A stretch of 44,056 nt of DNA, taken from positions 1 to 44,056 of the forward strand of contig CAIUPH010000069.1 of NCBI GenBank assembly GCA_903901015.1, given 5' to 3'. Every line of letters begins with the position of its first letter. The stretch's first letter is position 1. The notes under the pieces are model-generated. The model was not told the origin of the DNA. It ran no database searches and saw nothing but the letters and a program-made list of their open reading frames with translations. The DNA comes from Candidatus Bathyarchaeota archaeon (GTDB lineage Archaea; Thermoproteota; Bathyarchaeia; Bathyarchaeales; Bathycorpusculaceae). The translations under genes were made by a program, and so were the position numbers. Below are positions 39,722 to 44,056 of the stretch, in pieces.

Positions 39722-40930
39722 TTAACCGAAGTAGTTCGTGTATAGGGCAATGTAGCCTAAGACGCCTGCGATGTAGGAGAGAACCCACAGAATCACGGTT
39801 GCAGGCGCTATCAGTCTGGTTTTGGCGACAAACACAGTTGAAGTGGGACTCCAAAGCACGATAAACCACACCGCTAAAACTAATGCTGGAAAAGACAGAA
39901 TCGAATGCGATATGAATTCGGCAGCGTATGCGGGCGAAGTGAAAAAAACTACCATAGTGAAACTGCTCGGAGGAGTCAGAAGCAGCACCAACGCGAAGTT
40001 GAGCAGCGTTATGGTGACTGCCACTATCCAAAAGATTCCATGCAGACGGTACCTGCCCTTCGCCCTAAACCACATGCTTGCAACGAGCAGTCCACACCAA
40101 ATTGTCTGCATAAAAAGGTTGATTTCGTGAAAGCTCATAGTGATTTTGCTTTGGAAAGCACCGAATAAAATTAAGGCAATACCCATCACCACAATAACCA
40201 GTATAATGGTGAGCGCTTTGATTCTCCGCAGCAAAACAGACAATAAACCTGCCATTTTCGGGCTTTTCCTATTCACCGCAACCACCAAAGAAAAAACAAG
40301 CAAAACCGCGCCCACCACGCCAGCTCCAACCAGAGCGTAAAGCTGCGACTGGTTCTGGTTTTGGTTTGTGATGGGGTCGGGGCTCCACATGTTTGTGGCA
40401 GTGGCGGTTGAGATGACGGTGAAGTTTTTGGGTTTTTCCAAAGAATACGTGTAGACGCCCGTTGCTTTGTCCCATTCCTTTACGATGCGTTCGGAGTCGC
40501 TTGCGTGGGTTATGGTTCTGGTTGCGCCTGCCACATTTTTTTGTTCTTGCTCCTCAATCGCTATATTGCCTGGTGTTGCAGAATCATAAAAAGTGGCGCC
40601 TGTACCAAGGTTCGCTGGAATGATTACCCATCCTTCAATTTGTCCTTTAGTTAAGTTGAAATCCCAAATTGAGCTTGAAACACTGCCATTAACGTTTCTA
40701 ACAGTTACATTTGCATGAAAAGCCGTGTCTTGTATCTCCAAAATTTCTATTCTAAACCAGGTAATGTTGTGTGCTGGAGAATCGGTTGGACCTGTTATGG
40801 AGACGGTGTATTCCATCCAGTCGCCCGCTTTGACGCCAACCGAAAGCTGTTCAGAAGCGCCTGCGGGTGAAGCCAAAATTGAAACAGAAACCATTATGCA
40901 GACTAGGACTAAAGCAACGAGGGATTTCAT
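39722..40930 (-). CDS. Exported multi-pass membrane protein, hypothetical
   Basis: A 402-residue protein. A signal peptide (residues 1-25, ending SPAGASEQ) leads to an extracytoplasmic beta-rich domain (30-190) with VKAGDWMEYTVSITGP at its start, a pattern seen in archaeal secreted proteins. About six transmembrane helices follow (near 200-225, 240-262, 272-290, 302-322, 330-362, 375-400). Conserved-looking residues lie in FHEINLFMQTIWCGLL and GRYRLHGIFWIVAVTITLLNF, weakly like DUF420. Function unknown. Two copies of a GTCAA-N6-TTGAC palindrome lie upstream, between it and the divergent gene at 41155. Confidence 0.65.
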   Translation of the reverse strand: MKSLVALVLVCIMVSVSILASPAGASEQLSVGVKAGDWMEYTVSITGPTDSPAHNITWFRIEILEIQDTAFHANVTVRNVNGSVSSSIWDFNLTKGQIEGWVIIPANLGTGATFYDSATPGNIAIEEQEQKNVAGATRTITHASDSERIVKEWDKATGVYTYSLEKPKNFTVISTATATNMWSPDPITNQNQNQSQLYALVGAGVVGAVLLVFSLVVAVNRKSPKMAGLLSVLLRRIKALTIILVIVVMGIALILFGAFQSKITMSFHEINLFMQTIWCGLLVASMWFRAKGRYRLHGIFWIVAVTITLLNFALVLLLTPPSSFTMVVFFTSPAYAAEFISHSILSFPALVLAVWFIVLWSPTSTVFVAKTRLIAPATVILWVLSYIAGVLGYIALYTNYFG

Positions 40931-40976
40931 ATTTCATCAATTAATGTCGTGAAGCTGTTACCTTAAGAGGTTTTTC

Positions 40977-41039
40977 GTCAAGAAACCTTGACTAACTCAC
41001 CACGGCAGACAAATGGTTTAGTCAAGAAACTTTGACTAA
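40977..41039. promoter_or_regulatory. Paired GTCAA-N6-TTGAC operator-like palindromes, divergent promoter
   Basis: Two inverted repeats lie here: GTCAAG-AAAC-CTTGAC at 40977-40992, and the longer TTAGTCAA-N6-TTGACTAA at 41018-41039, with centres 44 bases apart. They sit just upstream of a TATA-like CTTAAGG (minus strand, about 40961-40968) for the gene ending its start at 40930. The same motif recurs in tandem at 43965-44004. This looks like the site of a dimeric regulator not identified in the window. Confidence 0.65.
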
Positions 41040-41154
41040 CCTAATCGAGGGATCTCAAACATCACAACAAAAAAATTGGATGCAACTGAACCCCCAACCT
41101 GCAGATAGATACACTTAAAATACAAACGAATCAAATAAAGAAAGAGGAAAAGTC

Positions 41155-41865
41155 ATGTCTGAAGTCGAGGTAATACTAAGGCAGGAAGCAGGCGTTAAAG
41201 ATCACGAGTCAGAAACGCCGCCGACCGTCGGGCTCAAAGCAGGCGCCTTCGCAGAACTTGGCACCCTAATACTAACAAACAAACGCCTCATTTACATTTC
41301 AAAGGGAGGAGGCGCCCGAGCGGCTGCGTGGGCGTTAGGCGGAGTTTTCGCAGCTCAAGCCATTGAAAACAGCGTCTCTAAAGCCGAAATAGATGAACTT
41401 TCGAGCCAGGAAGGCAGCTACTTTACGCTCCTGCAGAACATTACTAGGGCTGAAGCTGGAAAGAAAATGGGGCAAACTTTCGTTAGTGTGGGTAGCGTTG
41501 GTTCAATGAAACCGGTTCATGCCTACGTCGTTGGAGGAGGAACCAACAATCAACAGTGGGCTGCCACCATAAATCAAGCTAAAGCCGCATTACAATTCAC
41601 GCCGACGGCAGGTTTTGGTCCTCAACAACCACAGCGAACATCTTATGTGAGAACCTGCCAGCGATGCGGCAAACCCGACAGCCTTGGATCAAAATTCTGC
41701 ACTTCATGCGGTGCACCTTTTGAGCAGCTCCAAACGCAGGCAACTTTTCCTTCGCCACCTCCACCGCCGCCGACAACGCCTACATGCCCCTACTGCAAAA
41801 GCCCAATCCGCTACATCCAGCAATATCAAAGATGGTACTGCGACAACGAAAAAAGGTATGTTTAG
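41155..41865 (+). CDS. PH/GRAM-like domain protein with two zinc ribbons
   Basis: A 236-residue protein. Residues 1-150 resemble a bacterial PH or GRAM-type domain: LGTLILTNKRLIYISKGGG is the typical strand pair, followed by a Gly/Ala-rich helix. Residues 163-185 are a zinc ribbon (CQRCGKPDSLGSKFCTSCG), then a Pro-rich linker with eight consecutive prolines broken only by Ser, and a final CPYC...WYCDNE ribbon, possibly incomplete. Archaeal proteins of this layout act as membrane- or protein-binding adaptors; no activity is known. A TATA-like CTTAAAATA (41114-41122) and GAGGA precede the ATG. Confidence 0.62.
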   Translation: MSEVEVILRQEAGVKDHESETPPTVGLKAGAFAELGTLILTNKRLIYISKGGGARAAAWALGGVFAAQAIENSVSKAEIDELSSQEGSYFTLLQNITRAEAGKKMGQTFVSVGSVGSMKPVHAYVVGGGTNNQQWAATINQAKAALQFTPTAGFGPQQPQRTSYVRTCQRCGKPDSLGSKFCTSCGAPFEQLQTQATFPSPPPPPPTTPTCPYCKSPIRYIQQYQRWYCDNEKRYV

Positions 41866-42164
41866 ATTTTTCTTCATGCATCCTTTTGCCTAATTAAAAT
41901 GAAAGAAAAAAATTATCGATTTTAGGATGGTTATTTAAAGTCGGAAAATTATTGTTTTCCGGTTTTTTCTTCATGCTTTTTCTTTTTTGCTAGGTTCTTT
42001 TTTGCTAATGAAGGCATAATATTATTCCTCTTAGGTAATTATAGTTTAACTATTATGTATGAAAGTGCCTAAAAGCTTACCTATTAAAAACCTGAAAAAA
42101 CAAACGCAGATGAGGTTTAAGCTATATATAATGGGTCAGACAAACTCAGCAAACATGTTAACTG
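41866..42164. other. Intergenic region, AT-rich
   Basis: About 300 bases without a gene. It contains the terminator-like hairpin listed at 41942 and T-rich runs. The end has a TATATATAAT-like element near 42124-42132, a likely TATA box for the helical-protein gene that follows. Confidence 0.5.
41942..41968 (+). terminator. Hairpin plus T-run after the PH-like gene
   Basis: CGGAAAA (41942-41948) and TTTTCCG (41955-41961) form a perfect 7-base stem with a 6-base loop, followed by a run of T. It lies 77 bases after the stop at 41865. Archaeal termination mainly needs the T-run; the hairpin may help. Confidence 0.55.
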
Positions 42165-42617
42165 TTGATTTGGGGGAACATCGAGTTGGATGAAGTCTTA
42201 GAAATGTTGGATAAAACCGCGAAGCGGGTACAGAAAGTTGCAGATGAAACAAAAGAAGCCACTGTGAAACAAACAGCCCTCTACGAGGGACTTCTAGCGT
42301 CGCCACTGGCGTCTCAGGAGCAGAGGTTAAGGGCGTTTATCGGAAAAACGCTAGAGTTGGAACGTTTAGAACGGTTGAATTCGCAGCTTACATTGCTCTA
42401 TACGCTGCAGATTTTCGCGTTCAAAGTTAAAGTGATTGAAGTTTCCGTCAGCAAAATAAACGAGCAACTAGTGAAAGCGGGGGTTCTGCAGAAAAGCGGC
42501 GAAGTCGAAGACATAACTAAGAACATCGACGCACTAAAAATCTTAATTGAAGCACATTACGAGTCGATGAAGGAAATAAACGAAACTCAGAACAAGAACC
42601 TCGGATACATTCAATAA
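42165..42617 (+). CDS. Helical hypothetical protein
   Basis: A 150-residue protein, nearly all helical: LDEVLEMLDKTAKRVQKVADETKEATVKQTALYEGLL, then a region with heptad-like leucines (LELERLERLNSQLTLLYTLQI) and another helix ending NKNLGYIQ. No Cys, signal or membrane segment. The start is uncertain: TTG at 42165, TTG at 42186 (preceded by a G-rich possible ribosome-binding sequence) or ATG at 42204. No ATG gives the full length. I do not recognise the family; coiled-coil interaction is likely. Confidence 0.5.
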   Translation: MIWGNIELDEVLEMLDKTAKRVQKVADETKEATVKQTALYEGLLASPLASQEQRLRAFIGKTLELERLERLNSQLTLLYTLQIFAFKVKVIEVSVSKINEQLVKAGVLQKSGEVEDITKNIDALKILIEAHYESMKEINETQNKNLGYIQ

Positions 42618-42637
42618 AAAATAATGATAAAAAGGGC

Positions 42638-42669
42638 AGCCTTGGTGGCTTTAAACCACCTTTTGGGCT
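42638..42669. terminator. Hairpin between convergent genes
   Basis: AGCC-x2-GGTGG (42638-42648) pairs with CCACC-x5-GGCT (42656-42669) around a CTTTAAA loop. It lies between the stops of two convergent genes (42617 and 42674) and could act for both. Confidence 0.5.
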
Positions 42670-42673
42670 TATT

Positions 42674-43594
42674 TTAGAATAGTTTTTCCCAACTTGTGAC
42701 TAAGTCGAGGACTTCTTGACCTTGTTTTCCGCCGTAGCTAACTAAGCGTTCGCGAACGTCTTTTTGGGCGATTGCTGCTTTCTGGAATTCTTGCATTTGT
42801 GCTGCTTTGTCTGTGAGGTATAGTAGTCCGTCTACTCCTGCGCGTGCCATGCGTACTGAGACTGTTAAGAGTTCAGCTGGGGTTGGGCATTCTTTTGGAT
42901 CGTCGCCGGGGCCTAGAACGTATAGAGCTATGTTGAGTGGTACGTCTTTGAAGAGTTTCTTGAAGTTGCGTGTAAGCATTTCGTTGTACCATGGTGTAGC
43001 GTAGTTTTTGTTGAACATGACGACGAGGAATTCGTCGGTTAATGGTGCGAGGTCGTCGAAGCATACTCCGAAGCGTTCGTAGTTTGTAACTGGGTCTGGA
43101 AGGACACCGATGACGAATTTTTTCTTTGCTTTGTTGCGTACGCGGTCGCTTACCTGTGCCATGTATTCAGTGATTTCTTTTCGTCTCCATTCATACCAGC
43201 TTAATCCGCTTTTCTTCCATAAGTCTTTGCATCGTGGGCATGTGCAGTGGCCGTGTTCTGCGAAGTGGATGCTGTTTAGCCAGATTCCTTGGCTTTTGCG
43301 TGCTACGTCTTCGATGTAGTCGAGTTGTTCTGCGCGGTGTTCAGGTTGTGTTGCGCATAGGACTTCCCAGCGAACGTTAAAGTTGTCGTTGGTTCTCCAT
43401 GCGGGTCCTAAGTCTGATTGGCTGATCCAGTCTGGGTGGATGCGGGCGGTTACGTTGTCTCCGAAAATCGCGATGTTGCTGTGCATGTCAGCTTTTGGGG
43501 GCATTCGTCTGCCTACTTCGGGTTTTACTCGGAAAAGGTCATAGTCGAAGCCTGGAACTTTCTTTGCTTCAAACATGTATGTGCCGAATTTCAT
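42674..43594 (-). CDS. Hypothetical TIM-barrel-like protein (hydrolase-like)
   Basis: A 306-residue soluble protein. Alternating strands and helices (FGTYMFEAKKVPG, IWLNSIHFAEHGHCTCPRCKDLW, KKFVIGVLPDPVTNYERFGVCF, DEFLVVMFNKNYATPWYNEML, PLNIALYVLGPG, RMARAGVDGLLYLTDKAAQ) suggest a (beta/alpha)8 barrel like those of glycoside-hydrolase-related families. CTCPRC near residues 117-122 is a possible metal site. No catalytic pair can be named with confidence, so I do not claim an activity. The minus-strand TATA-like TTTATAAC is at about 43637-43644. A hairpin overlaps the start codon (43594-43621). Confidence 0.55.
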   Translation of the reverse strand: MKFGTYMFEAKKVPGFDYDLFRVKPEVGRRMPPKADMHSNIAIFGDNVTARIHPDWISQSDLGPAWRTNDNFNVRWEVLCATQPEHRAEQLDYIEDVARKSQGIWLNSIHFAEHGHCTCPRCKDLWKKSGLSWYEWRRKEITEYMAQVSDRVRNKAKKKFVIGVLPDPVTNYERFGVCFDDLAPLTDEFLVVMFNKNYATPWYNEMLTRNFKKLFKDVPLNIALYVLGPGDDPKECPTPAELLTVSVRMARAGVDGLLYLTDKAAQMQEFQKAAIAQKDVRERLVSYGGKQGQEVLDLVTSWEKLF

Positions 43595-44042
43595 TTTGCG
43601 TCTACCTTTTTAGACACAAAACGTTCGGCGCGGTTATAAAGTTTTGCATATTAAGCACAAAATTTATTGCAAAGCGAAAAATGCACTTTGGCACTTGGTT
43701 AGGTTGAGTTAAACCATGGTTTTCTGGGGGATATTGATGGTTTTTGGGCTTGGTGACATGCTGAAATGGAATTTAAGTCTATTTTCGATGTTTTTTGTGC
43801 TTTTATTTTTTCTTTATTAGTAGTTGTTGAATTGAGGTTGCTATACACAACAACTTCCATCAGATTGAGTTGTTTATTGTTTTTTGACAGCATAGGCAAG
43901 TTTGGGTTGCTGGCTGGTTGTGGAGGCTACCACAAGCTGGACAGGTTTAAATGCGGAACCTTCCGTCAATAAACCTTGACTAAACCAGGTCAAGAAACCT
44001 TTACGAATAAGCTTTTATCGCAAACAGCTTCTAAGAGGAAGT
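43595..44042. other. Intergenic region with regulatory signals
   Basis: About 450 bases without a convincing gene. It holds the leader hairpin of the TIM-barrel-like gene (43594-43621) and T-rich runs near 43786-43818. A long-loop inverted repeat AGTTGTTG / CAACAACT occurs at 43822-43829 and 43848-43855. It ends with the tandem operator-like motif near the right end. Short frames across it (for example 43699-43899 minus and 43766-43972 plus) look like chance. Confidence 0.5.
43965..44004 (+). promoter_or_regulatory. Tandem GTCAA-N6-TTGAC motif upstream of the last gene
   Basis: GTCAA-TAAACC-TTGAC (43965-43980, followed by TAA) and GTCAA-GAAACC-TTTAC (43989-44004, one mismatch) lie 24 bases apart centre to centre. 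A TATA-like TTTTATC (44012-44018) follows, then AGAGGAAGT and ATG at 44043. The motif matches the pair at 40977-41039. Confidence 0.6.
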
Positions 44043-44056
44043 ATGAGCAGCATAAG
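44043..44056 (+). CDS. Start of a gene cut off by the window edge
   Basis: Only the first codons (Met-Ser-Ser-Ile) are visible. The ATG follows GAGGA at good spacing, a TATA-like element and the operator pair, so a real gene probably begins here. Nothing can be said about its product. Confidence 0.45.

Follow-up and report, generated by a model that had tools for sequence, protein, structure and literature searches.

Paired copies of the palindrome GTCAA-N6-TTGAC stand at two promoters in a 44,056-nucleotide contig of a Candidatus Bathyarchaeota archaeon (CAIUPH010000069.1, assembly GCA_903901015.1; this whole stretch is called the window below), and such boxes probably mark a surface-protein regulon in Bathyarchaeia, where they mostly lie before genes for exported proteins. 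The Bathyarchaeia are abundant and mostly uncultured. Our preferred reading, to which we assign a probability of roughly 0.6, is that the boxes are the paired operators of this regulon, that they are of activator type, and that they are read by a membrane-bound ArsR-type winged helix-turn-helix (wHTH) protein with a PepSY-like sensor. We computed the boxes themselves, their helical phasing, their register with the TFB recognition element (BRE) and TATA box, the enrichment of hydrophobic N termini among downstream genes, and the co-occurrence of boxes with the candidate reader. Genomes are referred to by G numbers, the window's own being G000.

Paired palindromes at two promoters of the window

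The original prediction, made from the letters of the window, claimed four copies of the palindrome in two pairs at promoters, and all four were recovered as three exact copies and one with a single mismatch. In 60 first-order Markov simulations of the window, exact cores averaged 0.03 and never exceeded 1, compared with the three observed. Once two mismatches were tolerated, the window had 26 matches and shuffles predicted 24.25, which is no excess, so the signal is confined to exact and near-exact copies.

The first pair precedes the minus-strand gene that starts at 40930. Its proximal box (40977 to 40992) is an exact match, reads TTA-GTCAAGGTTTCTTGAC-GAAAA-AC-CTCTTA on the minus strand, and is followed directly by the BRE/TATA region at 40964 to 40976. 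The distal box at 41018 to 41039, also on the minus strand, is a 22-nt extended palindrome, TTAGTCAAGAAACTTTGACTAA, that encloses the core at 41021 to 41036 and accounts for the greater length originally given to this site; the core-to-core distance is 44 bp, a recurring spacing. The second pair lies on the plus strand before the gene that starts at 44043, with an exact distal box at 43965 to 43980 and, 24 bp further on, a proximal box at 43989 to 44004 whose right half, TTTAC, holds the one mismatch; the BRE/TATA region GAATAAGCTTTTA follows at 44005 to 44017. A promoter matrix built solely from other genomes gave its two top window scores at 40977 on the minus strand (42.8, the window maximum; downstream matrix part 14.2) and at 43989 on the plus strand (32.2; downstream part 13.7), compared with a best score of 8.0 among six simulated windows. 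These scores bear out the pairing at promoters and two of the genes originally named as targets, and, judged from the sequence, the sites have the form expected for a dimeric regulator, as had been proposed.

Boxes in relatives are phased and abut the BRE and TATA box

The genome of the window (2.05 Mb in 117 contigs) contains 16 exact copies of the core versus 6 of a reversed-pattern control, and 9 copies versus 1 of the longer form TNAGTCAAN6TTGAC on the forward strand. Many of the exact copies have the spacer GAAACC or GAAACT, and many are paired at 24 bp. The longer form occurred at least three times, both strands summed, in 19 of 151 genomes of the class, in which the reversed control was found zero to one time. 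Across the 162 genomes of the order, the pattern GTCAAGAAANNTTGACNA occurred at least once in 45 genomes and at least three times in 36, and the reversed control matched two genomes, once each. The box-bearing relatives belong to the class Bathyarchaeia and include Candidatus Bathyarchaeum and Candidatus Bathycorpusculum, the latter an inhabitant of termite guts.

Stretches were fetched around most of the sites listed in 12 genomes, yielding at least 147 box clusters. Random scatter through coding regions had been set beforehand as the outcome that would refute a regulatory role; it was not seen, as only 5 of the 147 clusters lay inside an open reading frame (ORF) of at least 100 aa. The 108 spacings between neighboring boxes fell into 23 to 25 bp (37), 32 to 36 bp (54), 42 to 46 bp (15), and 54 bp (2), and the classes at about 24, 34, and 44 bp differ by one helical turn (vector strength 0.86 for a 10-bp period), placing paired boxes on one face of the helix. 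Alignment of the 109 proximal boxes that precede genes with a hydrophobic N terminus gave TTA-GTCAAGAAAnnTTGAC-RAAAA-nn-CTTTTA, with the box consensus GTCAAGAAANNTTGAC, in which the inner GAAA occurs in either orientation. In these promoters the proximal box abuts an A-rich BRE, whose positions 3′ of the box read RAAAA, and a TATA box in fixed register, and gene starts mostly follow 35 to 60 nt past the proximal box.

Many near-identical short copies per genome might also be left behind by a repeat or mobile element. We regard this origin as scarcely credible and rejected it because conservation in the 109 promoters stops at the box, BRE, and TATA box; moreover, the copies stand before unrelated genes, are helically phased, and occur in two families.

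Genes downstream of the boxes mostly encode exported proteins

An ORF with a hydrophobic N terminus was found at 116 of the 133 clusters that had a nearby ORF, compared with 141 of 409 matched pseudo-sites, signal peptides being judged throughout by a hydrophobicity rule rather than a dedicated program. The pseudo-site control was chosen because a cluster may pick a gene in either direction, for which a single-gene control (24% of 696) is too lenient. When direction was fixed by the TATA box alone, an ORF of 60 aa or more stood on one side of 92 of the 147 clusters, and 75 of these 92 ORFs were hydrophobic at the N terminus; the remaining clusters had no ORF (14), a TATA box on both sides (17), or no TATA box (24). 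The genome-wide motif scan proposed in the original prediction returned a set of genes whose products are mostly exported. In G000 the genes downstream of boxes include those for a NosD-like protein, a PQQ/BamB-like propeller, a kelch protein, a ferredoxin-domain protein, small exported proteins without an assigned family, and a 64-aa Cys-rich protein. On contig C5 the other-genome matrix picked out another two genes for exported proteins.

In the window, the target at 39722 to 40930 (minus strand) encodes a 402-aa exported or membrane protein with an N-terminal hydrophobic segment and a weak DUF420 match below the cut-off. Its orthologue in G039, a genome of another family (L114:4548-5798), is 42% identical and has three boxes upstream. 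The second target begins MSSI and is cut by the contig end (44043 to 44056, plus strand); by analogy its product may be exported, as its start context resembles that of a gene on contig C92 (MSNLSKLLAL...). Control of the gene at 41155, which the original prediction had held possible, did not stand: no box faces a BRE/TATA region in that direction, the downstream score parts were -12.9 and -8.6, and the gene was rejected as a target. Nor did its description as PH-like hold, since Pfam gave zinc-ribbon matches only, all below cut-offs, and no PH domain. Beside the second promoter, the minus-strand gene at 42674 to 43594 has a weak match, below cut-off, to the glycosyl hydrolase-like family GHL10; it points away from the boxes, and the promoter matrix does not make it a target.

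Outside the window, a conserved Cys-rich protein of 61 to 64 aa (L035:6139 on contig C54, and L208:2882), with neither a hydrophobic N terminus nor a Pfam match, has a box pair before its gene in each of two genomes. An anaerobic ribonucleotide reductase in G039 (L119:1750-3972; NRDD, ATP-cone) has a perfect box palindrome 141 nt upstream and, at its N terminus, a winged-helix-like stretch with a DUF7347 match just below cut-off.

A membrane-bound winged-helix protein is the candidate reader

The candidate reader is a 431-aa protein adjoining a box pair in G144. Its predicted order of domains is a wHTH, one helix, and an extracytoplasmic domain that extends to the C terminus (mean pLDDT of the predicted fold, 83.5). 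The DNA-binding part is an ArsR-type winged helix, matching Pfam HTH_5 at 32.0 to 33.2 bits against a cut-off of 22 in the three proteins scanned, and the N terminus matches the folds of HlyU, SmtB, and CzrA. The predicted single transmembrane helix is the one at residues 99 to 146, which includes a hydrophobic stretch in both the model and the alignment. For the outside domain, Foldseek gave the YpeB C-terminal domain as best match (E 1.4e-7), together with vibriolysin MCP-02 chain A (E 5e-4), with TM-scores of only 0.43 to 0.50 by target length; we take both to be PepSY-type folds. The domain had no Pfam match, PepSY included, at E 0.05. Relatives of the outside domain also occur in exported proteins, some of them box-controlled. 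In G000 the main copy of the reader is apparently split over contigs C80 and C3, and a broken second copy lies in separate pieces at G000:C66:11016-11537.

To relate reader and boxes, a carrier was defined as a genome with a full-length copy (E ≤1e-80) and a box-rich genome as one with at least three strict matches. Full-length readers were present in 54 of the 162 genomes of the order, comprising 34 of the 36 box-rich genomes and 20 of the 126 others, and only 2 of the 108 non-carriers were box-rich. At the level of genera the two sets coincide: of 68 genera, the 8 that contain box-rich genomes are also the 8 that contain carriers (p 1e-10 by Fisher test, uncorrected for descent). In the class set of 151 genomes, the reader was found in 19 of 19 box-rich genomes and none of the 122 non-carriers was box-rich. 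The variant pattern GTMAAGAAANNTTKACNA, for which G000 and G144 served as positives, had one to three matches in 8 of the 11 strict-box-poor carriers tested (none in G096, G145, and G149) and was found in none of 15 non-carriers.

The original prediction had also asked whether a regulator gene lies under its own boxes, and in some genomes boxes do precede such a gene. Of 54 reader loci, 12 have a strict box in the 300 nt before the reader gene, often at -72 to -118. Among the other ORFs of these loci the figure is 6 of 122, some of those ORFs possibly sharing a promoter with a divergent gene (p 0.001); 54 of 59 loci were used, five short or weak ones having been dropped, and locus L330 lacked upstream sequence. 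In G161 the sole strict-pattern match adjoins the reader gene, which has two boxes immediately upstream. At several reader promoters the second box, examined by eye, faces a TATA-like stretch on the opposite strand, so that two genes in divergent orientation apparently share the pair.

A recognition-helix change goes with a change in the boxes

The recognition helix of the candidate reader was readable in 38 of 42 cases, with one copy taken per genome. Genomes of the window's genus were grouped by the residue at one helix position: at least five strict boxes were present in 9 of the 10 with H or Y and in 1 of the 15 with N (p 5e-5, uncorrected for descent). The N-type genomes have variant half-sites, GTAAA/TTTAC, for example upstream of a wHTH gene linked to hemA. 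The G000 reader has N at this position, and a T in place of G in the right half was found in 8 of 12 paired proximal boxes of G000 and 15 of 98 such boxes from the other 11 genomes, a comparison biased by the fact that loci in the other genomes were picked by strict boxes and those of G000 by weaker ones too. The one-mismatch box at 43989 in the window is of this T-for-G kind.

A wider claim, which we would put slightly short of even odds, is that in several bathyarchaeial genera the surface proteome has the membrane wHTH as its master regulator, acting at tens of promoters through paired, helically phased boxes. Some of the products would be exported proteins related to its own sensor domain, a hint of feedback or competition at the cell surface, and the change from H to N in the recognition helix would accompany loss of strict boxes and the appearance of GTAAA/TTTAC half-sites in the lineage that includes the termite-gut species.

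Several observations weigh against the membrane wHTH as reader. G178 (96% complete) and G179 (95% complete) carry 6 and 9 boxes, several of them before clear exported genes, and no full-length membrane wHTH was found in either, profile search included; G196 (71% complete) and G177 (78% complete) likewise have boxes and no reader. Conversely, strict boxes number fewer than three in 20 of the order's 54 carriers and are missing upstream of the reader gene at 42 of 54 loci, and the window genome's own reader copy has no upstream box. As to the helix, G146 and G176 are box-rich despite N in the copy read (each has a second copy, which in G146 has H), and G181, with H, has no strict box. These genomes encode many paralogues of the winged-helix domain, any of which may share the sites, and neither the co-occurrence tests nor the helix tests were corrected for descent. 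From the sequence evidence, the membrane wHTH is likely rather than proven to be the reader, because the two nearly complete genomes G178 and G179 have boxes without such a protein.

The same two genomes are an argument that the regulon is real and its reader another DNA-binding protein, with the membrane wHTH merely sharing its lineages and sometimes being itself a target; the absence of boxes from most reader genes points the same way, as do other helix-turn-helix (HTH) genes downstream of boxes, namely one for an 86-aa HTH_45-like protein (L137:3786-4046) and one for a 322-aa wHTH protein on contig C26. We nevertheless consider another reader rather unlikely: box-rich genomes and the membrane wHTH match at genus level, a change in its recognition helix accompanies the change in the boxes, the lone strict match in G161 stands before its gene, and no other candidate fitted, the C26-type protein being the one alternative examined for co-occurrence. 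Clustering of neighboring genes in 12 genomes found no other regulator conserved directly beside boxes among families of at least four genomes; a TrmB-like family lies about 2 kb from boxes. In G144 the 86-aa HTH_45-like protein has a 34-bp box pair before it (L137:3647-4046) and is a possible secondary regulator of the regulon.

The C26-type protein is encoded upstream of hemA, and in G000 a perfect box pair precedes its gene. Box pairs at 24 bp, exact or variant, lie upstream in G000, G044, G078, G122, G135, and G149, and a variant box lies near a second copy in G052. That it is the general reader is nonetheless very improbable and stands refuted. A search at E 0.001 found no match in four box-rich genomes of Bathyarchaeum type (G039, G048, G069, and G128), nor in G099. 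The protein is also present in many genomes without strict boxes, and boxes are missing upstream of its orthologues in G144, G093, G111, and G102; it makes better sense as a target. The gene in G000 encodes a Cys-rich protein and lies directly upstream of a full-length hemA (L032:6585-8851). In G078 (L068) the ORF that follows the C26-type relative is only 84 aa long and matches the GlutR dimerisation domain alone, and similar 84-aa ORFs follow the C26-type gene in G122, G135, and G149 (loci L068, L069, L070, and L072 overall), as if hemA had been lost from these four genomes except for its tail.

Proposed mechanism

Returning to the membrane wHTH, we infer that it binds the boxes, that activation is the effect, and that it responds to a signal. 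It would be a membrane-anchored one-component regulator of about 430 aa, in which one transmembrane helix joins a cytoplasmic winged helix of ArsR type to a PepSY-like sensor outside. As a dimer it would bind the two boxes on the same face of the DNA, with the proximal box touching the BRE, and the bound regulator would most likely activate by helping TFB/TBP at the promoter. By sensing something at the cell surface the reader could adjust which exported proteins are made, and in some lineages it may also control its own gene.

ArsR-type proteins are mostly repressors, and the proximal box directly contacts the BRE. Both points would suit repressor operators, at which the regulator blocks TFB/TBP at the BRE until a signal releases the exported-protein genes. 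Repression is, in our judgment, unlikely, as the boxes do not overlap the TATA box and the second box lies two to four turns upstream; the close parallels with ArnR and TFB-RF1 considered below also fit activation.

Comparison with known systems

An open-literature search returned nothing for 'Bathyarchaeia' and 'regulon' together, and no description of this motif or of a regulon in Bathyarchaeia was found in the open literature, a coverage that excludes most subscription journals and preprints. The boxes amount to a cis-regulatory code legible in the sequence itself, which marks exported proteins switched together and names a candidate reader, and the variation among lineages offers a natural series of specificity changes for study.

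Transmembrane transcription regulators (TTRs) are reported to be widespread in archaea (PMC10269533), and the candidate reader is predicted to resemble them in combining a DNA-binding domain and a transmembrane region in one chain; TTRs are, however, a broad architectural class, and the main text of that report contains neither 'Bathyarchae-' nor 'ArsR'. In its DNA-binding domain the candidate is like the ArsR-type proteins SmtB, CzrA, and HlyU, both by fold and by the Pfam HTH_5 match, but their solved chains are about 90 to 110 aa and the candidate adds a membrane helix and an outside domain. For that sensor, which lacks a Pfam match, the closest comparison is the YpeB C-terminal domain, its best fold match, a likeness that implies no role of YpeB in transcription.

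TFB-RF1 of Pyrococcus furiosus binds a palindrome directly upstream of the BRE and TATA box, and its model of activation is TFB recruitment (PMC5937170). The boxes described here are likewise palindromic and directly upstream of the BRE and TATA box, but the TFB-RF1 site is TCTG-N5-CAGA and its targets are few. Activation of the TFB-RF1 type would call for a weak BRE that needs recruitment; the A-rich BRE here (RAAAA) does not look obviously weak, as far as a sequence can show strength. A close parallel is offered by two regulators of Sulfolobus acidocaldarius, ArnR and ArnR1. These are winged-helix proteins bound to the membrane that activate surface structures, the archaellum and pili, and they bind two inverted repeats, TCGAC-N5-GTCGA, upstream of the BRE/TATA region, both of them required for binding (PMC6396743). 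The system described here shares with them a predicted membrane-bound winged-helix regulator and tandem inverted repeats just upstream of the BRE/TATA region. The box is GTCAA-N6-TTGAC rather than TCGAC-N5-GTCGA, and in place of the HTH, HAMP-like domain, sensing domain, and two C-terminal transmembrane helices of ArnR there is a single central helix with a PepSY-like domain outside. The candidate reader would work like ArnR but is not an ArnR, because the tests of box sequence and domain order fail. The ArnR targets given in that report are archaellum and pilus promoters (PMC6396743), and the targets here are tens of exported proteins. The regulon would widen ArnR-type control by a membrane-bound protein beyond the promoters of pili and the archaellum, to a large set of surface proteins.

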